In this document: piece by piece, positions 2,892 to 13,963 of the stretch
Layout of the letters: each line of letters opens with the position of its first letter
How positions within the stretch are numbered: the stretch's first letter is position 1
Position numbers and translations under genes: made by a program
Notes under the pieces: generated by a model
What the model saw: only the letters and a program-made list of their open reading frames with translations
What the model was told of the DNA's origin: nothing
Databases searched by the model: none
DNA from: an uncultured Oscillospiraceae bacterium
GTDB taxonomy: Bacteria > Bacillota > Clostridia > Oscillospirales > Acutalibacteraceae
DNA length: 57,917 bases
Assembly (NCBI GenBank): GCA_949283785.1
Contig: CASDTR010000024.1
Coordinates: 1 to 57,917 of the forward strand
Reading direction: 5' to 3'

Positions 2892-4049
2892 ATGATTATC
2901 GGTATTCCAAAGGAAATAATGCATGATGAGGGACGTGTTTCCGCAATCCCGGAGACAGTCAAAAAAATGGTGGCCGACGGAGCCGCTGTACTTGTTGAGA
3001 GCGGTGCAGGCGCAGGTTCATTTTACAGTGACGAAGAGTATAAAGCTGCAGGTGCGGAGCTTGTTGACGACGTAGCCGAGGTCTATGAGAGAGCTGACGT
3101 TATACTTAAGGTTAAAGAGCCTCTCTTTAACGAAGCGAAAGGTGTTCACGAAGTTGATATGATGAAAAAGGGACAGTATCTTATCACCTTTATTCATCCT
3201 GCGTCTCCCGTAAACCACGAAATGGTAAAGAAGCTTGCCGCAAAGGGAGTTATCTCTATAACCCTTGACGGTATTCCCAGAATTTCGAGAGCCCAGAATA
3301 TGGACGCTCTTACCTCAATGAGCACATGCGCAGGCTATAAGGGAATCATGCTCGCTGCAAATGATCTTGCAAAATTTGTTCCTCAGATTTTCTGCGCTGT
3401 CGGTATGATAAAGCCCGCCAATGCAATGGTAATCGGAACAGGCGTCGGTGGCCTTCAGGCAATCGCGACGGCAAAGCGTCTTGGAGCAGTAGTATATGCG
3501 GCGGATATCAGACCTGACGCTGCTGAGCAGGCGAAAAGCCTCGGCGCTAAGGTCATAGATCTGGGAGTTCCCGCTTCCGAGGCAGTAGGCGAAGGAGGAT
3601 ACGCAAAGCGTATTTCCGACGAGTGGCTTCAGAAAGAGCGTGCGGTTATAGCGGAACACATCAAGGATATGGATATCGTTTTCTGCAGCGCCCTTATTCC
3701 CGGAAAGCTTGCTCCTATCCTTGTAACCGAGGATATGGTAAAGTCAATGAAGGCGGGTTCAGTTATAGTTGATATTTCAATCGACCAGGGCGGCAACTGC
3801 GAAATCACAACTCCCGGCGAGAGAGACGTGAAGCACGGCGTTGTTCTTGAGGGTATTAAGAATATTCCCGGTATGCTTCCCACCAGCTCAACATGGATGT
3901 TTGCAAACAATATTTACAATCTCCTCAAATTCCTTGCCAAGGACGGAGAGATGGCACTCGATATGAACGACGTTATAGTTCAGTCAAGTCTTGTAACGAT
4001 CGACGGCGAAATTGTACATAAGGGTGCAAAAGAGGCTATGGGTCTTTGA
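2892..4049 (+). CDS. pntAA: Transhydrogenase alpha subunit 1 (domain I, NAD(H)-binding), PntAA
   Basis: Soluble domain I of the proton-translocating nicotinamide nucleotide transhydrogenase, 385 residues, which binds NAD(H) and exchanges hydride with domain III. The RQD loop that reaches the nicotinamide is intact (R130, Q135, D138 within PRISRAQNMD), as is the dinucleotide fold (G182-T-G-V-G-G187), with D205 after the second strand favouring NAD over NADP. Alanine dehydrogenase is homologous, but the RISRAQNMD loop, the neighbouring pntAB and pntB and the split gene layout favour PntAA. AGGAGG lies ten bases before the ATG. This three-gene split is common in bacteria. Confidence 0.93.
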   Translation: MIIGIPKEIMHDEGRVSAIPETVKKMVADGAAVLVESGAGAGSFYSDEEYKAAGAELVDDVAEVYERADVILKVKEPLFNEAKGVHEVDMMKKGQYLITFIHPASPVNHEMVKKLAAKGVISITLDGIPRISRAQNMDALTSMSTCAGYKGIMLAANDLAKFVPQIFCAVGMIKPANAMVIGTGVGGLQAIATAKRLGAVVYAADIRPDAAEQAKSLGAKVIDLGVPASEAVGEGGYAKRISDEWLQKERAVIAEHIKDMDIVFCSALIPGKLAPILVTEDMVKSMKAGSVIVDISIDQGGNCEITTPGERDVKHGVVLEGIKNIPGMLPTSSTWMFANNIYNLLKFLAKDGEMALDMNDVIVQSSLVTIDGEIVHKGAKEAMGL

Positions 4050-4117: not shown

Positions 4118-4414
4118 ATGAAAGAATTAATTTATGTGGTTATTTTCATAGCCGCAACTTTAATAGGATATAAAATAATCAATAATGTGCCGAGCCTTCT
4201 TCACACACCTTTAATGTCGGGTATGAACGCCCTTTCGGGAATAACGATTCTCGGCGCCCTTACTGCGACGGCTCTGGCGATGGGAACGGGAAATAAAATT
4301 TTAGGTGTTATCGCGATTTTCCTTGCCATGATAAACGTTGCGGGAGGCTTCGGTGTTACGGGCCGTATGCTGCGCATGTTCAATAAAAAGCACGGGGAGG
4401 ACGACAAACAATGA
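4118..4414 (+). CDS. pntAB: Transhydrogenase alpha subunit 2 (membrane domain), PntAB
   Basis: A 98-residue membrane protein with three hydrophobic segments (about 2-20, 33-55 and 60-80). It corresponds to the first part of transhydrogenase domain II that, in split enzymes, is encoded between the NAD-binding subunit and PntB. It is identified mainly by length, membrane topology, the VPSLLHTPLMSGMNALSG stretch typical of PntAB, and position. The stop overlaps the pntB start by 4 bp (ATGA-type junction), implying translational coupling. Together with the N-terminal part of PntB it forms the proton channel. Confidence 0.9.
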   Translation: MKELIYVVIFIAATLIGYKIINNVPSLLHTPLMSGMNALSGITILGALTATALAMGTGNKILGVIAIFLAMINVAGGFGVTGRMLRMFNKKHGEDDKQ

Positions 4415-6912
4415 CTGATTTGATTTATTACATCATTTGCGGCGTCCTTACTGTCGGCGTGCTTGTGGGAATAGCTCTCATGAGCAAGGTAAAGCTGGCT
4501 CCTACGGGAAACCGTCTCAGCGCGGTATGTATGGCGGCGGCTATCGGCGTGACACTTTATAAGAATGAAATTCTGACTGATTGGATGCTGTGGGCTGCCA
4601 TGGCCGCAGGTCTGATCGCGGGACTTATCTGGGCTAAGAGAATCAAAATGATTGAAATGCCTGAGGTAGTTGCACTTTTTAACGGCTTCGGCGGAGCGGC
4701 GTCAGCGCTTGTGGCCTTTATTTCTGTTGTAGGTCATCAGAGCACAAGTAAATTCGCCCTTGCCACAGGCGGACTCGCTCTTGCAATAGGCGTTGTGACC
4801 TTTGTAGGCAGTGCCATTGCTGCGGGAAAGCTACACAAGGTTATTTCCCAGCGCCCCGTGGTATTTAAGGGACACAGCACTGTTACAACTCTTTCTCTTT
4901 TGATTGTCGCAGTGACGGTTGTACTTATCACTTTTGAGGTATCGATTCTTGTAAGCTGTATCCTCTGCGCAGTTTTCAGCGCCGTATTCGGATATGCGTT
5001 TTCAATTCGAGTGGGCGGTGCGGATATGCCCATAACTATTTCCCTTCTTAACTCCTTCAGCGGCGTTGCGGGAGCGATTGCAGGTATGGCCATCGGTGAT
5101 CCTCTCCTTATAGCCATCGGTGGAGTTGTCGGTGCTTCGGGTCTGCTTCTTACTCAGATCATGTGCAAGGCCATGAACCGTCATCTCATAGACATCCTTC
5201 TCGGAAAGACCTCTGTTTCTGGAACGGTCAAAAAGGCGGAGGTTAAGAAAGAGGAAAAGGCGGAAGAAAAAATCACCTCTGCCGCTGAGGAAACAGAAAA
5301 AGAAAAAACACCTGCCGAAATTTTAAATGAGGCAAAGAAAGTTATAATCATTCCTGGCTACGGTATGGCGTTGGCTCAGGCTCAGCACCTTGTAAAGCAA
5401 TTGAGCGATAAGCTTGAGGCCAAGGGAGCGCAGGTCAAATTCGCCATTCACCCTGTAGCGGGCAGAATGCCGGGACACATGAACGTGCTTCTGTGCGAAG
5501 CCGACGTACCCTATGAAAAGCTCTACGAAATGGACGACATCAACCCTGAGTTTTCCGAAACAGATGCGGTAATTATAATCGGAGCAAACGACGTTGTGAA
5601 CCCCGCCGCAAAGGAAGCGGAGGGCACGCCTATTTACGGAATGCCCGTTCTTGATGCAGACAAGGCGAAACATGTAATAATCTGCAACTACGACTTAAAA
5701 CCCGGCTACGCGGGAGTAGAAAATCCTCTTTACAGTAAAGAAGAGGGCGTGACTCTCCTTTTGGGAGACGCCTGCGAGACCCTCGGCAACCTTCTTAAAG
5801 ATATGGATGCAAAACTTGAAAAGGTTTCGGATGGCGAAAAAGCCGAAGAAAAAGAAGAGGAATACATAAAGGTTATCAATGAGGCAAAGAAAGTCATAAT
5901 CATCCCGGGCTACGGTATGGCGTTAGCTCAGGCTCAGCATCTTGTAAAGCAGCTGAGCGATAAGCTTGAGAATAACGGGGCGGAGGTAAAATTTGCAATA
6001 CATCCGGTTGCGGGAAGAATGCCGGGACACATGAACGTGCTTCTGTGCGAAGCCGACGTACCATATGAAAAGCTCTACGAAATGGACGACATCAACCCTG
6101 AGTTTTCCGAAACAGATGCGGTAATTATAATCGGAGCAAATGACGTTGTGAACCCCGCCGCAAAGGAAGCGGAGGGCACGCCTATTTACGGAATGCCCGT
6201 TCTTGATGCTGACAAGGCGAAACATGTAATAGTCTGCAACTACGACTTAAAACCCGGCTACGCGGGAGTAGAAAATCCTCTTTACAGCAAGGAAGATGGA
6301 GTGACCCTCCTCTTGGGCGACGCAAACAGCACATTGCAGAAGCTCATTTCGGCTATCGGAAAAGCTTCTGAGGAGAAAGATGCTTCGGCAGAGAAGGAAG
6401 CGGAAAAAGGAACTCCCGCAAAAATTCTCTCGGAAGCCAAGAAAGTCATAATAATCCCGGGCTACGGAATGGCGTTGGCTCAGGCTCAGCACCTTGTAAA
6501 GCAGCTGAGCGATAAGCTCGAAAACAACGGAGCGCAGGTCAAATTTGCCATACATCCCGTTGCGGGAAGAATGCCGGGACACATGAATGTGCTTCTGTGC
6601 GAAGCCGATGTCCCCTATGAAAAGCTCTACGAAATGGACGACATCAACCCTGAGTTTGCCGATGCCGATGCTGTAGTTATAATCGGCGCCAATGACGTTG
6701 TAAACCCTGCCGCAAGAGAAGCGGAGGGTACGCCCATTTACGGAATGCCTGTTCTTGACGCAGACAAGGCGAAGCATGTTATTATCTGCAACTATGACTT
6801 AAAACCAGGCTATTCGGGAGTTGAAAATCCTCTTTATACTAAGGAAACAGGAGTGACGCTCCTGTTAGGCGATGCCTGCGAAACCCTTAAAGAGCTTCTT
6901 TCATTATTTTAA
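4411..6912 (+). CDS. pntB: Transhydrogenase beta subunit with three tandem domain III copies, PntB variant
   Basis: PntB is normally about 460 residues: a membrane half and one nucleotide-binding domain III. This protein has 833. Residues 1 to ~265 are the multi-helix domain II, including the NGFGGAASALVAF segment. A charged Lys/Glu linker (~266-300) leads to domain III copy 1 (~300-468), copy 2 (~485-652) and copy 3 (~668-833), joined by acidic or charged linkers of roughly 15-20 residues. Each copy has GYGMALAQAQ, AGRMPGHMNVLLCEADVPYE, IIGANDVVNPAA or its V variant, and GYxGVENPLY. The NADP 2'-phosphate motif Lys-Arg-Ser of E. coli PntB is replaced in all three copies by Asn-Tyr-Asp (N426, N610 and N794 start each triplet). 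The frame is open throughout, so the expansion is coding. Nucleotide specificity and the use of three copies are open questions. Confidence 0.9.
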   Translation: MTDLIYYIICGVLTVGVLVGIALMSKVKLAPTGNRLSAVCMAAAIGVTLYKNEILTDWMLWAAMAAGLIAGLIWAKRIKMIEMPEVVALFNGFGGAASALVAFISVVGHQSTSKFALATGGLALAIGVVTFVGSAIAAGKLHKVISQRPVVFKGHSTVTTLSLLIVAVTVVLITFEVSILVSCILCAVFSAVFGYAFSIRVGGADMPITISLLNSFSGVAGAIAGMAIGDPLLIAIGGVVGASGLLLTQIMCKAMNRHLIDILLGKTSVSGTVKKAEVKKEEKAEEKITSAAEETEKEKTPAEILNEAKKVIIIPGYGMALAQAQHLVKQLSDKLEAKGAQVKFAIHPVAGRMPGHMNVLLCEADVPYEKLYEMDDINPEFSETDAVIIIGANDVVNPAAKEAEGTPIYGMPVLDADKAKHVIICNYDLKPGYAGVENPLYSKEEGVTLLLGDACETLGNLLKDMDAKLEKVSDGEKAEEKEEEYIKVINEAKKVIIIPGYGMALAQAQHLVKQLSDKLENNGAEVKFAIHPVAGRMPGHMNVLLCEADVPYEKLYEMDDINPEFSETDAVIIIGANDVVNPAAKEAEGTPIYGMPVLDADKAKHVIVCNYDLKPGYAGVENPLYSKEDGVTLLLGDANSTLQKLISAIGKASEEKDASAEKEAEKGTPAKILSEAKKVIIIPGYGMALAQAQHLVKQLSDKLENNGAQVKFAIHPVAGRMPGHMNVLLCEADVPYEKLYEMDDINPEFADADAVVIIGANDVVNPAAREAEGTPIYGMPVLDADKAKHVIICNYDLKPGYSGVENPLYTKETGVTLLLGDACETLKELLSLF
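5308..6899 (+). repeat. Three tandem in-frame repeats inside pntB (domain III copies)
   Basis: Repeat units start near 5308, 5863 and 6412; copies 1 and 2 are offset by 552 bp (184 codons). Copies 1 and 2 are almost identical at DNA level over about 270 bp (5469-5740 with 6021-6292, about half a dozen differences by eye, mostly silent). Their first thirds are clearly more diverged. Copy 3 differs more evenly. The pattern suggests old duplication with later gene conversion between copies 1 and 2. Confidence 0.92.
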
Positions 6913-6973: not shown

Positions 6974-7017
6974 CATATTTAGACCACTCACGGGATAAAA
7001 TAGAAAAAAGGAGTTTG

Positions 7018-7974
7018 ATGAATATGGCAAATGATAACAGAAAGGTCGTTCTTATCGGTACAGGCATGGTGGGAATGAGCTTTGCCTACGCGCTTTTAAA
7101 TCAGGGAGCCTGCGATGAGCTGGTTTTGATAGACGTTGCAGCTGAAAAAGCTATGGGCGAAGCGATGGATCTAAATCACGGCCTGGCTTTTGCTCCGTCG
7201 AATATGAAAATCAAAAGCGGAGATTACAGCGACTGCACAGATGCAGATATAATTGTTTTGAGTGCGGGAGCCGCCCAGAAGCCCGGGGAATCAAGGCTTG
7301 ATCTTCTTCAGCGGAACGCGGATATTTTTCGCTCCATTATCGGTCAGGTCACACAGTCGGGCTTTAACGGAATTTTCCTCGTAGCCACAAATCCCGTTGA
7401 TATTATGACGAAAATAGTCTGTGAGCTTTCGGGCTTTAATTCCCATCGTGTAATAGGCACGGGAACGGTACTTGATACCTCAAGGCTTAGGTATCTTTTA
7501 GGCAGCTATTTTAATGCAGATCCTCGCAATATTCACGCCTATGTCATAGGCGAACACGGAGACAGCGAGTTTGTTCCCTGGTCCCAAGCGATGTTTGCCA
7601 CAAAGCCCATAATTGACATATGCGAAGAAAGCGGAAATGATTTTTCTGTAGATGAGCTTGAAAAAATCGCCGTAGAAGTCCGTGACGCGGCGCAGAAAAT
7701 AATTACGGCAAAAAAAGCCACTTATTACGGTATAGGTATGGCAATGCTCAGAATTACTAAGGCGATTTTCGGAAACGAAAACAGTGTGCTGACGGTTTCT
7801 TCAATGATGAAAGGGGAATACGGTCAGAACGGAATTTTTGCGGGAGTGCCGTGCATAGTTAACCGAAACGGTGTAAGAAAAATTTTAACCCTGAACCTTA
7901 CTGATGAGGAACTGGAAAAATTTAACAATTCCTGCAAAATTTTAGAGGAGACTTTGGGAAAGCTTAAATTATAA
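7018..7974 (+). CDS. ldh: L-lactate dehydrogenase
   Basis: NAD-dependent L-lactate dehydrogenase, 318 residues, reducing pyruvate to L-lactate at the end of fermentation. It has the Rossmann motif GTGMVG (15-20), an Asp ending the second strand (LID, D39) as expected for NAD, an active-site loop with Arg (QKPGESRLDL) and the catalytic His motif GEHGDSE. The L-2-hydroxyacid dehydrogenase family also includes malate dehydrogenases; the loop residue (Gln in AAQKPG) and length fit lactate dehydrogenase. GGAG is four bases before ATG 7018; ATG 7024 (316 residues) is equally possible. It sits behind the transhydrogenase but after a terminator, so it is its own unit. Confidence 0.9.
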   Translation: MNMANDNRKVVLIGTGMVGMSFAYALLNQGACDELVLIDVAAEKAMGEAMDLNHGLAFAPSNMKIKSGDYSDCTDADIIVLSAGAAQKPGESRLDLLQRNADIFRSIIGQVTQSGFNGIFLVATNPVDIMTKIVCELSGFNSHRVIGTGTVLDTSRLRYLLGSYFNADPRNIHAYVIGEHGDSEFVPWSQAMFATKPIIDICEESGNDFSVDELEKIAVEVRDAAQKIITAKKATYYGIGMAMLRITKAIFGNENSVLTVSSMMKGEYGQNGIFAGVPCIVNRNGVRKILTLNLTDEELEKFNNSCKILEETLGKLKL

Positions 7975-8955: not shown

Positions 8956-10182
8956 ATGAGAAAAGCAGTAAAAATCACCGCAGGATTTATTTCGGTAATC
9001 ACTATTTTGATTTTGATTCTTATGGTATTTGCATATTACTTTCTGCCCGCAAGTTATTTTGTCACGGATGAAAGAAATATTACCATAAAAAATATTTATT
9101 CTATCAGCTGCTTTGAAGAAAATGAAAATCAGGTAAATTCTTCCGAGGAAACGCCTTTGGAAAAAACCGTGAAAAAAGATATTACTCTGTTTAACGTAAT
9201 ACCTGTAAAATCCGCCGAAGTGACGAGGATACAGCGAAAGTATGTCATTCCCGGCGGAAATATTTTCGGTATACGGCTTTATACGAGCGGCGTCATGATC
9301 GTAGGGATGCAGGATATTACCACGGAAAAAGGCAGCGTAAATCCCGCGGAGAAAGCAGGGCTGAAAATAGGAGATATAATTACCCATGTCAATGGCGAAG
9401 AGGTAAATAAAAACAAGGATATAATGTGGCTTTTTGAAAGCTCAGACGGGAAAGGCATCAATATAGAGTATATAAGAGGTGAAAAGACCTATTCAACGGT
9501 TTTGTATCCGCAGCTTTCAAAGGATGACAGTAAATACAGAGCGGGACTTTGGGTGAGAGACAGTACGGCAGGAATAGGCACAATGACATATTACGATGAA
9601 GAAAACAATATTTTTGCAGGCCTCGGACACGGGATCTGCGACGTGGATACAGGCGAAATAATGCCGCTGCTGGGAGGAGACATAGTTGAAGCCGTTGTCA
9701 GCAGCTGTACTAAAGGCAGCGAAGGGACGCCAGGTGAGCTGATAGGAGCTTTCAGCGGAGCAGTGACGGGAAATTTGGTGCTGAATACTGCGGCGGGAAT
9801 TTACGGCACAACTATCGGCGAAATAAAAGTCAGCGCAGAAAAGATACCTGTTGCGACAAAGCAGGAGGTGGAATCGGGCAAGGCGTATATTATTTCCACA
9901 ATAGACGGTAAGACTCCTGAAAAGTTCGAAGTAGAAGTAAAAAAAATTTTTGCGGGGGATTCCGGTTATAAAAATATGGTGGTAAAAGTGACGGACAGCC
10001 GTCTTATCGATGTAACGGGCGGTATAGTGCAGGGTATGAGCGGCAGTCCCATAATACAAAACGGAATGCTCATCGGTGCAGTGACCCATGTTTTCGTAAA
10101 TGACCCGCTGCAAGGGTATGGTATATATGCTGAAAAAATGATTGAAATTTCAGACACTTTGACTGAGGACGCTGATGATTAA
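8956..10182 (+). CDS. spoIVB: Stage IV sporulation protein B (SpoIVB), S55 serine peptidase
   Basis: A 408-residue forespore-secreted protease that, in Bacillus, cleaves SpoIVFA and so triggers pro-sigma-K processing. It has an N-terminal membrane/signal segment (~8-30), a PDZ domain (~112-185, with GLKIGDIITHVNGEEV), and the S55 domain with the catalytic His motif GLGHGICD (H225) and Ser motif GMSGSP (S362). The length is close to the Bacillus protein. AGGAGGTG lies just before the ATG. spoIVB next to spo0A is a deeply conserved arrangement in endospore formers, which supports the call. Its target sigma factor, sigK, is encoded 4 kb downstream. Confidence 0.95.
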   Translation: MRKAVKITAGFISVITILILILMVFAYYFLPASYFVTDERNITIKNIYSISCFEENENQVNSSEETPLEKTVKKDITLFNVIPVKSAEVTRIQRKYVIPGGNIFGIRLYTSGVMIVGMQDITTEKGSVNPAEKAGLKIGDIITHVNGEEVNKNKDIMWLFESSDGKGINIEYIRGEKTYSTVLYPQLSKDDSKYRAGLWVRDSTAGIGTMTYYDEENNIFAGLGHGICDVDTGEIMPLLGGDIVEAVVSSCTKGSEGTPGELIGAFSGAVTGNLVLNTAAGIYGTTIGEIKVSAEKIPVATKQEVESGKAYIISTIDGKTPEKFEVEVKKIFAGDSGYKNMVVKVTDSRLIDVTGGIVQGMSGSPIIQNGMLIGAVTHVFVNDPLQGYGIYAEKMIEISDTLTEDADD

Positions 10183-10255
10183 GGGAACCGCATGGCATAA
10201 TAAAAGTCAAAACCAATAGTTTTGGAAAATTATACCATTTTTTGCCAAAAGACTA

Positions 10256-10284
10256 TTGCCAACTGATGGATTAAATGGTAAAAT
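10256..10284 (+). promoter_or_regulatory. Sigma-A type promoter of spo0A
   Basis: TTGCCA at 10256-10261, a 17-bp spacer and TAAAAT at 10279-10284 with TG at 10276-10277. The transcript would start just ahead of the spo0A ribosome site. I found no clear 0A box by eye. Confidence 0.7.
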
Positions 10285-10314
10285 ATGGTAGAACAAAAAA
10301 CGGAGGTTTTGAAA

Positions 10315-11088
10315 ATGGAAAAAACAACAAAAATTATGATTGCAGAAGAAGGAACAGAATTCGGAAAAAGCTGCAGCAGCGTTTTGAGAAACGACGGATT
10401 TGACGTATCCATGGTCGCGAAAGACGGCGCGCTTGTAATAGACCGAATCAATGAGATAAAGCCCGACGTTCTCATTATGGACAGCTTTATGCCTCATGTG
10501 GACGGCTTGGGAGTGCTTTCCAATTTCAGAGAGCATCGTCCCGAGAAAAAACCAATCGTAATGCTTATGTCAAGTGTGGATAATGCAGAGTTTGAAAAGG
10601 AGGTTATTTCAGCAGGCGCAGATTACTATTTTCTCAAACCCTTTGATGTTGATGTGCTTTCTCAGCGCATCAAACAAATTACCGCGTGGAAAAATCGTAA
10701 TGTTAAGGGTGATATGTCCGAAATCGACAGCACTGAGGACCTTGAAGTCATTGTCTCTGAAATAATGCATCAAATAGGCGTCCCCGCCCATATAAAGGGA
10801 TATCAGTACCTTAGAACGGCGATTATTTTATCAATAAACGACAAAATGATGCTGGAATCTGTCACTAAAGTCCTTTATCCGACAGTGGCAAAGCTTTATA
10901 AAACTACTCCGTCCCGTGTAGAGAGGGCAATAAGGCACGCGATCGAAGTTGCTTGGGACAGGGGCGACGTAGATGTTCTCAGCTCCTATTTCGGATATAC
11001 CATTCAGAACACAAGAGGCAAGCCCACCAACAGCGAATTTATTGCCATGATAAGTGACAAGCTTCGTTTGAAGCTTAAAATTGCGTAG
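10315..11088 (+). CDS. spo0A: Stage 0 sporulation protein A, master response regulator
   Basis: Spo0A, 257 residues, the phosphorelay output regulator that commits the cell to sporulation. The receiver domain covers residues ~5-122 with the phospho-acceptor D56 (VLIMDSFMP) and conserved Lys K108 (YFLKPFD). The Mg-binding acidic pair, usually Asp-Asp, is E11-E12, and the conserved Thr is Ser (S86). The C-terminal DNA-binding domain (~145-255) has [28 protein letters not shown] and [13 protein letters not shown] 10315 is chosen because GGAGG lies nine bases upstream; an in-frame ATG at 10285 has no such site. Identity is certain from the C-terminal domain and spoIVB linkage. Confidence 0.96.
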
Positions 11089-11119
11089 CATCAAATCCGT
11101 AGTTTCCTGAATTAAAAAT

Positions 11120-11166
11120 CCTCCCGACGGTAATACTTTAAATGTAAAGCCGTGGGAGGTTTTTTT
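11120..11166 (+). terminator. Terminator-like hairpin whose 3' arm contains the sigG ribosome-binding site
   Basis: CCTCCC (11120/11121-11125) pairs with GGGAGG (11154-11159), CGG (11128-11130) with CCG (11150-11152), and CTTTA (11136-11140) with TAAAG (11145-11149). Seven T residues (11160-11166) follow, then the sigG ATG at 11167. GGGAGG is the sigG Shine-Dalgarno sequence, so the same fold could end spo0A transcription and hide the sigG translation start. Confidence 0.8.
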
Positions 11167-11934
11167 ATGAAATTTAATAAAGTTGAACTGTGCGGAGTAA
11201 ACACTTCAAAGCTGAAAGTGCTTAAGGAAAAAGAAAAAGTGGAACTGCTCAAAAAAATAAGGGAGGGGGACAAAAATGCTCGCAGCGAGTTGATAAACGG
11301 GAATCTGCGTTTGGTTTTAAGTGTTATTCAGCGTTTTACAAACAGAGGCGAAAATCTTGACGATCTCTTTCAGGTGGGCTGTATCGGACTTATTAAAGCT
11401 ATTGATAATTTTGATGTAAATCAAAACGTACGTTTTTCCACTTATGCAGTCCCAATGATCATAGGGGAGATCAGGAGATATCTGAGGGACAATAACTCGG
11501 TAAGGGTCAGCCGTTCTCTTCGTGATACCGCTTATCATGCAATGCAGATTAAAGAGCGTCTTACAAATGAAAATCAGAAGGAGCCGACAGTTGAAGAGAT
11601 AGCGAAAGAGATGAATATTAAGAAGGAAGAGGTAGTCATGGCGCTGGAAGCCATTGTAGAGCCCGTATCTCTCTATGAGCCGCTGTATAACGACGGAGGA
11701 GATACGATTTATGTTATGGATCAGGTAGGCGACAGCAACAGCGACGATAACTGGATTGATGAAATAGTTTTTAAGCAGTCGATAGAAAAACTCAGCGACA
11801 GAGAGAAAAAAATACTTTCCATGAGATTCATGCAGGGCAAAACCCAGACAGAGGTTGCAAGGGAAATAGGAATATCTCAGGCGCAGGTATCGAGGCTCGA
11901 AAAAAGCGCAATTAATAATATAAAGAATAAGTAA
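11167..11934 (+). CDS. sigG: RNA polymerase sporulation sigma factor G
   Basis: Late forespore sigma factor, 255 residues. It opens with the sigma-G signature (NKVELCGVNTSKLKVL), then region 2 (NGNLRLVLSVIQRF, DLFQVGCIGLIKAIDNFD, FSTYAVPMIIGEIRRYLRD), region 3 with SRSLRDTAY, and region 4 with GKTQTEVAREIGISQAQVSRLEK. The block EPLYNDGGDTIYVMDQ is near the Bacillus sigma-G sequence. The start is set by GGGAGG seven bases upstream. Its ribosome site lies in the hairpin described just upstream. sigE, often paired with sigG, is not in the window. Confidence 0.95.
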   Translation: MKFNKVELCGVNTSKLKVLKEKEKVELLKKIREGDKNARSELINGNLRLVLSVIQRFTNRGENLDDLFQVGCIGLIKAIDNFDVNQNVRFSTYAVPMIIGEIRRYLRDNNSVRVSRSLRDTAYHAMQIKERLTNENQKEPTVEEIAKEMNIKKEEVVMALEAIVEPVSLYEPLYNDGGDTIYVMDQVGDSNSDDNWIDEIVFKQSIEKLSDREKKILSMRFMQGKTQTEVAREIGISQAQVSRLEKSAINNIKNK

Positions 11935-11989: not shown

Positions 11990-13963
11990 TTATAAAGCTA
12001 TTTCCGTTTCTTCGCCTGATTTAATGATTATATCCTCTTTGCCTGAAACAGACATGATATAGTTATCGCTGTTTCGTTTAACTTTTATATCTATCTCTTT
12101 TCCGCAGAGTGTGAGGCTGTCTATTTCCGTAAAATCCCAGCTGCTCGGCAGGGAGGGCTTTAAGATGAATTTATTAAAGCCTATGGGTCTGATTCCCAAA
12201 ATGCCCTCCGAAAAGATCCTCAGATACAGTCCGCTTTCGGCAGAAAGCTGCGCCTGATTTCCCTCAGGGTAGGCTTCAACGGCGTAAGGGATGTGATTTC
12301 CGAGAAGTCTCGCTTTAGAGTAAGCGTTGAGCAGTTCGAGGCTGCGGTCAGCTTCGCCGCAGCTGAAAAGTCCTCTCAGGGCGTAAAGGGTAGAGCGATC
12401 CCAGAATGTCTTTTCTCCGCTTCTTGTAACAAGACCCTCTTCCATTCTCAGTTTGTCGGAAAACAGCGCGTCGGCGGTTCCCTTTGCTCTGTCGAAAATC
12501 CCAACCGTAAGGGGCATACATATCCATGAACGAAGGCGTTTTTCTTCGCTGCAATATCTGTATGTATCATAGCCTTCGACATTTTCTTCAAAGTAATTTT
12601 TGATGCCGTCTCTTATAATCTGTGCTTTATTTCTGTAATATTCGGCTTCTGAGGTTCTTCCCTTTTCCTCAAGAATATATGAAAAGTTCAAAAGGGCGTC
12701 ATAGGCTATGCATGATGTCGTAAGGTTTGCTTTTCCGCTTTCAAAGCGGTTCTCCAGCTCGTCGCTGTCACTTGCTACGACATTATTTTCATTTATCTGT
12801 GAAATGGTAAAATCGGCACAGTCTTTGATGGCATCTGTGAACTTATCGGCAAGCTTTTTGTCTCCTGAGGCCAGAACAAATCTTGAAGCTCCGTAGGCAT
12901 ACATGGCGCTGTCGCCTCTGTCTTTTGCTCCGTGCCAGATGCCGTCGCCTTCAGCCACAATGCTTGTTATAAGCGCTTGGTCGGGCGAAATGTATTTCTT
13001 ATAGAGGTTGTAGCAGTTTACGGACTGTTCAAATCCTGTTTTATAACCCAAATATCCGAAAAGGGGATTTATGTATTCGCATTGATCGTTTGTCCAAAGC
13101 GCCGCGTAATATCCTCCGCCTCCAGGTGAATGCATGAGCCCGTTTTTGGTCTTGTATATGCTTTCACAGGCTCTTATCTTTGCAAAGCGGCACATGGAGT
13201 TAATTGTATCGTCAGGAGTTTTCACAACCATTTTTTTGTCAAGGTCCGCTATCAGCTCGAGTCGCATTTTAAGCTGCTTTTCTCCGTCCAAATTAAGATC
13301 GGAGGCATTGAGATTTGTACCGCAATAATAGGCGAAAATTGTTTTGCTTTCTCCTGATTCTATGGTGAATCCGCTTTCGCTTACGGTGCAGCATAGCTTA
13401 TACTGTTTTCTTTCATGTCCGAAAATTTTAGGGGTAACATGTTGCCCGTCGTTGTTTATGCATTGGACCGTTAATGTCTGTGAACTTCCGTTAGTCATGG
13501 TGATTTTTTCCGTAAGGCAGGGAGCGTCAGGGGCAGTGAAAATTTCTCTCTTTATATAAACGTTTTTGTCGTAAGTTTCAATAGTTAAAATACCGCTGAA
13601 AATGAATTTTTTAACCTTTTCTGAAAGCTTCTGTCCGCCGACTGCAAAAGTAGCACCGCGGAAATTATGATCTTGGCTTGAATGTGTATTGTTAGGGTAC
13701 ATGCGAAGGGTCGGAAAAACAACATGGCGCATGATTTTAAAATTACCTTCTCTGTCGTGCCCGTAGCTGATTATGCTCGAAGCATAAAATCCCGACATTT
13801 CCACATGATTTCCGTATTCCTGATTATCTTTTGCACTGTATACAATGTTTTTTCCCTCAAGAAAATGGTACGTTTCGCTCTTTGCTTTTGGTATTTTAGC
13901 AAAGGAAGCGAAAAAGGGTATTCTCGGTCTTTTGATATTTCCATGAAGCAAGCCTGACAGCAT
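11990..13963 (-). CDS. Six-hairpin (alpha/alpha-barrel) glycosidase-like protein
   Basis: A 657-residue protein with the look of a six-hairpin glycosidase: an N-terminal beta-rich region (~1-230) and an alpha-helical barrel (~235-600) with Trp- and acidic-rich motifs (AALWTNDQCEYINP, AEGDGIWHGAKDRGDSAMYA, EKTFWDRSTLYALRG, YPEGNQAQLSAESGLYLR) and a small C-terminal beta region. No signal peptide is seen, so it probably acts in the cytoplasm on imported oligosaccharide. I cannot place it in a specific GH family (GH63, GH78, GH94 and GH15-like barrels all share the fold). TTAGGAGG fixes the start. It sits between sigG and sigK on the opposite strand, an odd place for sugar metabolism. Confidence 0.7.
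   Translation of the reverse strand: MLSGLLHGNIKRPRIPFFASFAKIPKAKSETYHFLEGKNIVYSAKDNQEYGNHVEMSGFYASSIISYGHDREGNFKIMRHVVFPTLRMYPNNTHSSQDHNFRGATFAVGGQKLSEKVKKFIFSGILTIETYDKNVYIKREIFTAPDAPCLTEKITMTNGSSQTLTVQCINNDGQHVTPKIFGHERKQYKLCCTVSESGFTIESGESKTIFAYYCGTNLNASDLNLDGEKQLKMRLELIADLDKKMVVKTPDDTINSMCRFAKIRACESIYKTKNGLMHSPGGGGYYAALWTNDQCEYINPLFGYLGYKTGFEQSVNCYNLYKKYISPDQALITSIVAEGDGIWHGAKDRGDSAMYAYGASRFVLASGDKKLADKFTDAIKDCADFTISQINENNVVASDSDELENRFESGKANLTTSCIAYDALLNFSYILEEKGRTSEAEYYRNKAQIIRDGIKNYFEENVEGYDTYRYCSEEKRLRSWICMPLTVGIFDRAKGTADALFSDKLRMEEGLVTRSGEKTFWDRSTLYALRGLFSCGEADRSLELLNAYSKARLLGNHIPYAVEAYPEGNQAQLSAESGLYLRIFSEGILGIRPIGFNKFILKPSLPSSWDFTEIDSLTLCGKEIDIKVKRNSDNYIMSVSGKEDIIIKSGEETEIAL

Follow-up and report, generated by a model that had tools for sequence, protein, structure and literature searches.

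The contig CASDTR010000024.1 of an uncultured Oscillospiraceae bacterium (assembly GCA_949283785.1), of which positions 1 to 57,917 form the whole stretch analysed here and are called the window, carries a row of genes for a relative of the proton-translocating transhydrogenases, whose PntB chain holds three tandem copies of the nucleotide-carrying domain III behind the membrane domain II. The gene order is Lrp/AsnC regulator, PntAA, PntAB, PntB and L-lactate dehydrogenase (Table 1), and the Pfam matches in the operon (PF02233, PF12769 and PF01262/PF05222) place domain II and the four-helix part of PntAB beside domain I. The pntB open reading frame translates without a break into 833 residues; the Pfam PNTB model extends over domain II and hits the chain in three separate stretches, with 1061.8 bits in total, and the AlphaFold model (mean predicted local distance difference test, pLDDT, only 71.2; predicted template modelling score 0.40) shows three domain III folds between low-confidence stretches and matches the solved domain III of R. 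rubrum, T. thermophilus and human. The three complete domain III in one chain, which a sequence-only reading of this DNA had described, are thus confirmed. The same reading had labelled them NADP-binding, and this label is called into question, as all three copies read N-Y-D in loop E in place of the motif associated with NADP (K-R-S in E. coli).

The cores of the three copies (residues 307-454, 491-638 and 675-822) share 93-97% of their residues and 86.5-92.6% of their bases, with 33-60 of 444 bases differing between any two. Most differing codons are synonymous (26/31, 45/55 and 40/50 for the three pairs), which points to selected copies and not to misassembly. The linker between domain II and the first domain III is about 37 residues long by the model; for known transhydrogenases, excerpts of PMC5742237 give 14-19 residues. 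In its own genome, the window PntB has one match only.

Table 1. Positions of the features of the gene row in the window
Feature	Positions	Strand	Details and evidence
Lrp/AsnC-type regulator, directly upstream of pntAA	2354..2830	+	
pntAA, domain I	2892..4049	+	RQD loop R130, Q135, D138; alanine dehydrogenase (AlaDH) catalytic residues R15, K75, H102, D298
PntAA Lys75 codon (AlaDH Lys75)	3114..3116	+	
PntAA His102 codon (AlaDH His96)	3195..3197	+	
PntAA Asp298 codon (AlaDH Asp270)	3783..3785	+	
pntAB, four-helix part of domain II with channel histidine His29	4118..4414	+	
pntB, domain II and three domain III copies, 833 residues	4411..6912	+	
Domain II of PntB, membrane part, residues 1-263	4411..5199	+	PNTB match; model helices 3-263; solved domain II structures matched
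Charged linker from domain II to domain III copy 1, residues 264-300	5200..5310	+	pLDDT <50 at 265-297
Domain III copy 1, residues 301-466	5311..5808	+	Hidden Markov model (HMM), alignment, structure model
Loop E N-Y-D of copy 1 (E. coli: K-R-S)	5686..5694	+	Alignment
Linker between copies 1 and 2	5809..5862	+	pLDDT <50 at 468-481
Domain III copy 2, residues 485-649	5863..6357	+	HMM, alignment, structure model
Loop E N-Y-D of copy 2	6238..6246	+	Alignment
Linker between copies 2 and 3	6358..6414	+	pLDDT <50 at 652-666
Domain III copy 3, residues 669-832	6415..6906	+	HMM, alignment, structure model
Loop E N-Y-D of copy 3	6790..6798	+	Alignment
L-lactate dehydrogenase, next downstream gene	7015..7974	+	

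Spread and conservation of the domain III arrays

Relatives were sought in overlapping genome samples of rising taxonomic rank. Two of the three genomes of the window's genus hold the gene, both with three copies, and the PntB of the second species has the same layout at 94% identity. Matches were found in 10 of 300 genomes of the family, in 12 of 394 of the order (three of the 12 being weak, with E around 5e-4, and not PntB), in 16 of 391 of the class and in 51 of 398 of the phylum, a less biased sample in which 49 genomes exceed the PNTB cut-off; the genus of Treponema putidum gave 6 of 8. From a search of GTDB contigs the best 80 of 570 loci were kept, ranked by score to a three-copy query, so that multi-copy chains are over-represented. 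The 160 distinct frames with domain III were reduced to 140 distinct chains by dropping those that lacked domain II or whose loop E motif could not be read; three chains that cut loci had duplicated (L136/L175, L140/L039 and L160/L173) are removed from this number and included in the loop E and linker counts below. I divided the chains by their loop E into a canonical KR class (K-R-S/G) and an NxD subfamily (N-x-D).

In this sample, several domain III occur in 47 of 101 NxD chains versus none of 39 KR chains; outside it, KR chains with more than one may exist. The NxD chains comprise 54 with one copy, 28 with two, 15 with three and four with four copies, the last in frames of 1010-1023 residues; contig ends cut the two-copy chains L156, L161 and L056 and, at its start, the three-copy chain L043, and the second copy of L129 is broken. 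By a reading of the match table, at least 20 of the 49 phylum genomes with PNTB have two or more domain III matches in one open frame. Arrays are also found in the complete Treponema putidum chromosome NZ_CP009228.1 (two copies) and in one-contig genomes of the window's phylum (G960 with three copies, G1267 with four and G1260 with two). The survey of PntB homologs that the sequence-only reading had suggested has therefore brought to light chains with two to four copies, by record title in Bacillota, Mycoplasmatota, Bacteroidota, Spirochaetota and Thermodesulfobacteriota, and the layout of the window gene is no one-off. In line with its remark that it knew of no described enzyme with such a layout, open-licence PMC full text (subscription journals and preprints being outside its scope) yielded no description of a triple domain III enzyme, of multi-domain III chains in general or of the NxD subfamily; what is available of PMC7614955 deals with tandem whole transhydrogenase genes in apicomplexa, not with tandem domain III.

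Some arrays look irregular. Just past the stop codon of a PntB with two domain III (L158/L186, G1123:C20:83684-84091) lies a partly degenerate third domain III stretch in a frame of 157 residues, as if the array were shrinking. In G1036 of the Treponema putidum genus (L129, L130) the second domain III is broken into two frames, and five relatives have two intact copies. The arrays of L169 (G1195), L170 (G1048) and L171 (G1361) are split over overlapping frames or appear as five partial copies at a contig start, and are either decaying or misassembled within the repeats. At G1098:C1:468900-469707, PNTB matches fall in short frames containing TGA and TAG, which indicates a decayed gene or another genetic code.

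Most copies are well conserved. All 31 residues checked are kept in 109 of the 113 complete copies from multi-copy chains, the exceptions being the three copies of L020 (D428S) and one copy in L122. The ratio of nonsynonymous to synonymous substitution rates (dN/dS), calculated over 120-codon cores in three genome pairs, lies at 0-0.03 when genomes are compared and at 0-0.06 for copies of one chain; for copies at the same position in the two species of the window's genus it is 0.007-0.016, a rough value as dS exceeds 1, and for all copy comparisons in the two Treponema genome pairs it is 0-0.03. In the window's genus, copies within a chain share 88-93% of their DNA versus 82-85% between the two genomes. 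Since the copies are closer within a chain than between genomes, despite the position-specific ends that both three-copy arrays share, recombination seems to homogenise them. The linkers between copies have a median length of 24 residues (range 16-53; 72 linkers) and are rich in Ala, Glu, Ser, Gly and Lys. In a few chains one copy stands apart, being 55-65% like its neighbours in L044, L045, L142 and L122 and 72% in copy 4 of L035, so that copies may have specialised there.

Loop E and domain I

In canonical domain III, a lysine and an arginine hold the 2'-phosphate of the nucleotide, and an aspartate at such a position favours NAD. Loop E was compared in 216 domains (39 KR and 177 NxD), at positions numbered two higher than in E. 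coli (R352 corresponds to R350). The reference chains of E. coli, T. thermophilus and sheep read K-R-S or K-R-G. Position 426 is Lys in 39/39 KR and Asn in 177/177 NxD domains, position 427 is Arg in 39/39 KR and mostly Tyr (71), Phe (50) or Leu (47) in NxD, and position 428 is Ser or Gly in 39/39 KR versus Asp in 174/177 NxD, the remaining three being the copies of L020 (N-S-S). The full K-R-S/G motif is accordingly present in every KR domain and in none of the 177 NxD domains. The two classes agree in the glycine motif and in R352, Y317 and D394 (R350, Y315 and D392 in E. coli), except that two KR rows have F317; further differences between the classes are mostly conservative (e.g. S406T, F441Y and F/Y451L). 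No conserved basic residue that could compensate was found in the NxD domains at any column from 304 to 464; position 430 is Lys in 121 of the 177 copies and otherwise also Asn, Gln, Ser or Ala. According to excerpts of PMC9529548, K-R-S (424-426) lies in loop E, and loops D and E set the specificity for NADP(H) over NAD(H); the accessible part of PMC5026163 lists no contacts to the 2'-phosphate. Because N-x-D replaces K-R-S in every copy, the nucleotide in these domains is most likely NAD(H) or another that lacks the 2'-phosphate. That domain III of the NxD subfamily carries NAD(H) itself appears to me the somewhat likelier case, and the three domains of the window are probably not ordinary NADP-binding ones.

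The second class difference, which the sequence-only reading had not noted, lies in domain I, where three true AlaDH (L201, L202 and L211) served for comparison. The RQD loop residues are kept in 106/106 NxD and 41/41 KR sequences, and their Q and D columns are a gap and Pro in all three AlaDH. PntAA Lys75, Glu76, His102, Met143, Ser144, Asp298, Gln299, Asn324 and Pro326, which align with AlaDH Lys75, Glu76, His96, Met133, Ser134, Asp270, Gln271 and Asn-x-Pro, are present in 106/106 NxD sequences, versus 0/41 KR sequences with the AlaDH-type Lys, Glu, His and Asp. Arg15 is found in all 90 NxD rows that cover it (16 have gaps) and in 41/41 KR, so that of the four catalytic residues the KR class keeps the arginine alone. 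In AlaDH, pyruvate is bound by Arg15 and Lys75, and alanine at Arg15, Lys75, His96 or Asp269 abolishes activity (PMC10401832, in excerpt), as replacement of His96 or Asp270 likewise does (PMC4691113, in excerpt). PntAA thus shares with AlaDH (TIGR00518) Arg15, Lys75, Glu76, His96, Met133, Ser134, Asp270-Gln271 and Asn-x-Pro-Gly in AlaDH numbering; unlike AlaDH, it has the RQD loop with its two-residue insertion, two more residues after the histidine and membrane partners. Its AlphaFold model (pLDDT 94.2) has transhydrogenase domain I as best fold match. Because the AlaDH catalytic set is present, domain I would most likely exchange the hydride with a small amino acid or 2-oxo acid; the chance that domain I has such a dehydrogenase substrate I judge to be just short of even. 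Asp205 (NAD-type) and Arg207 are kept in 106/106 NxD and 41/41 KR sequences, and a swap of cofactors, with NADP in domain I and NAD in domain III, is unsupported.

In a quick domain II tree, one branch parts NxD from KR (Shimodaira-Hasegawa-like approximate likelihood ratio test 100), and among the 99 NxD rows copy number switched between single and multiple 22 times or more, a count that includes G1036 twice and that short-read collapse of repeats could inflate. In domain I trees rooted on AlaDH, the KR sequences form a clade (100/100) nested in an NxD grade. The careful tree, in which the AlaDH branch is long, recovers NxD as one clade in 1% of bootstraps, and the approximately unbiased test does not reject such a clade (p = 0.41). 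The NxD sequences may be an ancestral grade that gave rise to the NADP(H)-specific transhydrogenases, and may show how transhydrogenases evolved from alanine-dehydrogenase-like enzymes.

Proposed cofactor, substrate and function of the arrays

The NxD enzymes share with the proton-translocating transhydrogenases (E. coli, R. rubrum, T. thermophilus and mitochondrial NNT) the PntAA-PntAB-PntB gene row, the domain II channel with its histidine (PntAB His29, of the T. thermophilus type, in 96/97 NxD and 39/39 KR), the RQD loop, the domain III fold, the glycine, Arg and Asp motifs and the gate pair Arg350/Tyr315 (E. coli numbers). They differ in having one to four domain III, three in the window, instead of one per chain, N-x-D instead of K-R-S/G in loop E, and the added AlaDH catalytic residues. 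I propose that they form a complex of the transhydrogenase family in which hydride transfer is coupled to protons, with PntAA as domain I and PntAB plus PntB as the domain II channel. Domain III is multiplied in the arrays, here to three modules that would be interchangeable on their flexible tethers. As pocket, gate pair and channel histidine are intact, each domain III should be capable both of exchange at the channel, face down, and of hydride transfer with domain I, face up. One copy could then stand at the channel while another on the same tether is at domain I and the third is in reserve, the tethered domains shuttling hydride between domain I and the channel. Chains of 2-oxoacid dehydrogenase E2 offer a parallel, as they carry one to several near-identical mobile lipoyl domains on flexible linkers. 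This is an analogy only: the folds are unrelated, domain III holds a non-covalent nucleotide and not a lipoyl arm, and it is tethered to a membrane proton channel. Flexible linkers, near-identity of the copies and conserved residues in each of them fit extra domain III that act as tethered reactive domains, and the odds of a shuttling role are about even. In the canonical enzyme, according to excerpts of PMC5742237, one domain III sits at the channel and the other exchanges hydride with domain I, and two domain I bind one domain III tightly and a second weakly.

Taken as a whole, this reading, a variant of the proton-coupled transhydrogenase with a tethered NAD(H)-carrying domain III shuttle and an amino- or oxo-acid-active domain I, is tentative, and even with weaker forms of it allowed for I would expect it to fail sooner than to hold. 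The net reaction would be amino acid + NAD+ -> 2-oxo acid + ammonium + NADH, with protons moving in step. In its boldest form the enzyme would be a proton-translocating amino- or 2-oxo-acid dehydrogenase, with hydride passing from an AlaDH-type domain I to tethered NAD(H) arms that couple it to the proton channel, and would represent a new energy-converting class. This form I think unlikely.

Several observations weigh against the proposal. The conserved residues of domain I do not prove a substrate, and some of the AlaDH-like positions are shared by part of the KR class (Met in 14/41, Ser in 8/41, Asn in 26/41 and Pro in 22/41). The TIGR00518 AlaDH model scores 200.6 and 197.3 bits on the window PntAA, far below its cut-off of 391.85; NxD genomes reach 170-197 bits in six single-piece matches and 71-125 bits for each piece in three two-piece matches, and two KR sequences 128 and 142 bits, all of them below the cut-off. 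The 50 best fold matches listed for PntAA are transhydrogenase domain I, among them 3p2y, which bears the title alanine dehydrogenase/transhydrogenase. If both sites bound NAD(H) and there were no further substrate, the enzyme would be a mere proton leak, and an exchangeable NAD at domain I would allow substrate oxidation to by-pass the coupling. The neighbouring genes of the compared NxD and KR loci indicate no single substrate. As one branch parts NxD from KR, the joint change in domains I and III is a single event and gives no statistical proof of an association. Furthermore, single-copy NxD chains are common, so the extra copies are not required. Lastly, no match to glucose-6-phosphate dehydrogenase was found in 7 of the 10 genomes checked (G000, G002, G960, G1267, G1107, G1328 and G1028), so that these, G000 and G002 included, need another source of NADPH, such as an ordinary transhydrogenase would supply.

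Alternatively, the NxD enzyme may be just that, an ordinary NADPH-making transhydrogenase in which backbone amides, the asparagine or the frequent Lys430 read the 2'-phosphate and the copies add capacity or speed. The missing glucose-6-phosphate dehydrogenase, the nearly unaltered remainder of pocket and catalytic residues, Lys430 in 121/177 copies and the NAD-type Asp205 of every domain I all speak for this possibility, which I take seriously and nevertheless consider doubtful: no conserved basic residue lies in or near loop E, position 430 being variable, Asp428, present in 174/177 copies where canonical chains have Ser or Gly, would push a phosphate away, and the AlaDH residues in 106/106 domain I are left unexplained. 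Other NADPH sources are mixed and non-decisive as evidence, with matches to GltA/NfnB-type proteins over the cut-off in 4 of the 10 genomes, and in G000 and G002 below-cut-off matches only. The best of the latter lies in a frame of 1152 residues (G000:C39:26071-27510), possibly a fused electron-bifurcating transhydrogenase or a glutamate synthase.

The extra copies could also have arisen neutrally by repeat slippage and be kept similar through recombination, bringing the enzyme no benefit; the homogenisation, the at least 22 copy-number changes and the decayed-looking copies in G1123 and G1036 are what this would predict. I regard it as rather improbable, as the tested copies are under strong purifying selection (dN/dS 0-0.03 between genomes), 109/113 complete copies retain all checked residues, both gene-holding genomes of the genus have three copies, and no array occurs in the 39 KR chains sampled. 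Still less probable is that undocked copies serve as a store of tightly bound nucleotide or as a redox sensor and not as carriers that turn over: isolated domain III does bind nucleotide orders of magnitude more tightly than domain III in the intact enzyme (PMC5742237, in excerpt), but the copies share their conserved residues and in most chains resemble one another instead of being specialised. An assembly artefact can for practical purposes be dismissed. Nothing in its favour was found for the window gene, and in other genomes an array is at times cut by a contig end; the mostly synonymous differences between copies and the arrays in closed genomes rule it out for the family and make it very improbable for this gene.

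The tethered shuttle that I prefer could be examined in nature's own series, as versions with one to four domain III make the alternation model, part of a mechanism still debated, testable through carrier number. Should the motif changes have the meaning proposed here, bacteria of several phyla possess a proton-coupled dehydrogenase that family models name an NADPH-making transhydrogenase, and metabolic models that credit the NxD enzyme with NADPH would then be wrong. Mariniphaga anaerophila (G1030; L195 and L196) has a KR operon as well as an NxD operon in one genome, so the two classes may not be interchangeable.

Neighbouring genes

The only neighbour that recurs in one orientation and one class is the Lrp/AsnC gene cluster, which lies upstream at 8 of 105 NxD loci versus 0 of 39 KR loci, many flanks being short. 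Other neighbours are few and were named by eye: a meso-diaminopimelate-dehydrogenase-like gene, class III aminotransferases and a nicotinamidase-like gene, the last directly upstream of pntAA in L184 and L185, with a possible link to NAD salvage. In the window, a 657-residue open reading frame at 11990-13963 on the minus strand has no Pfam match at 0.001. Between it and the operon (8956-11934) lie genes with SpoIVB peptidase, Spo0A and sigma-70-type domains, from which the host is probably of a spore-forming lineage.

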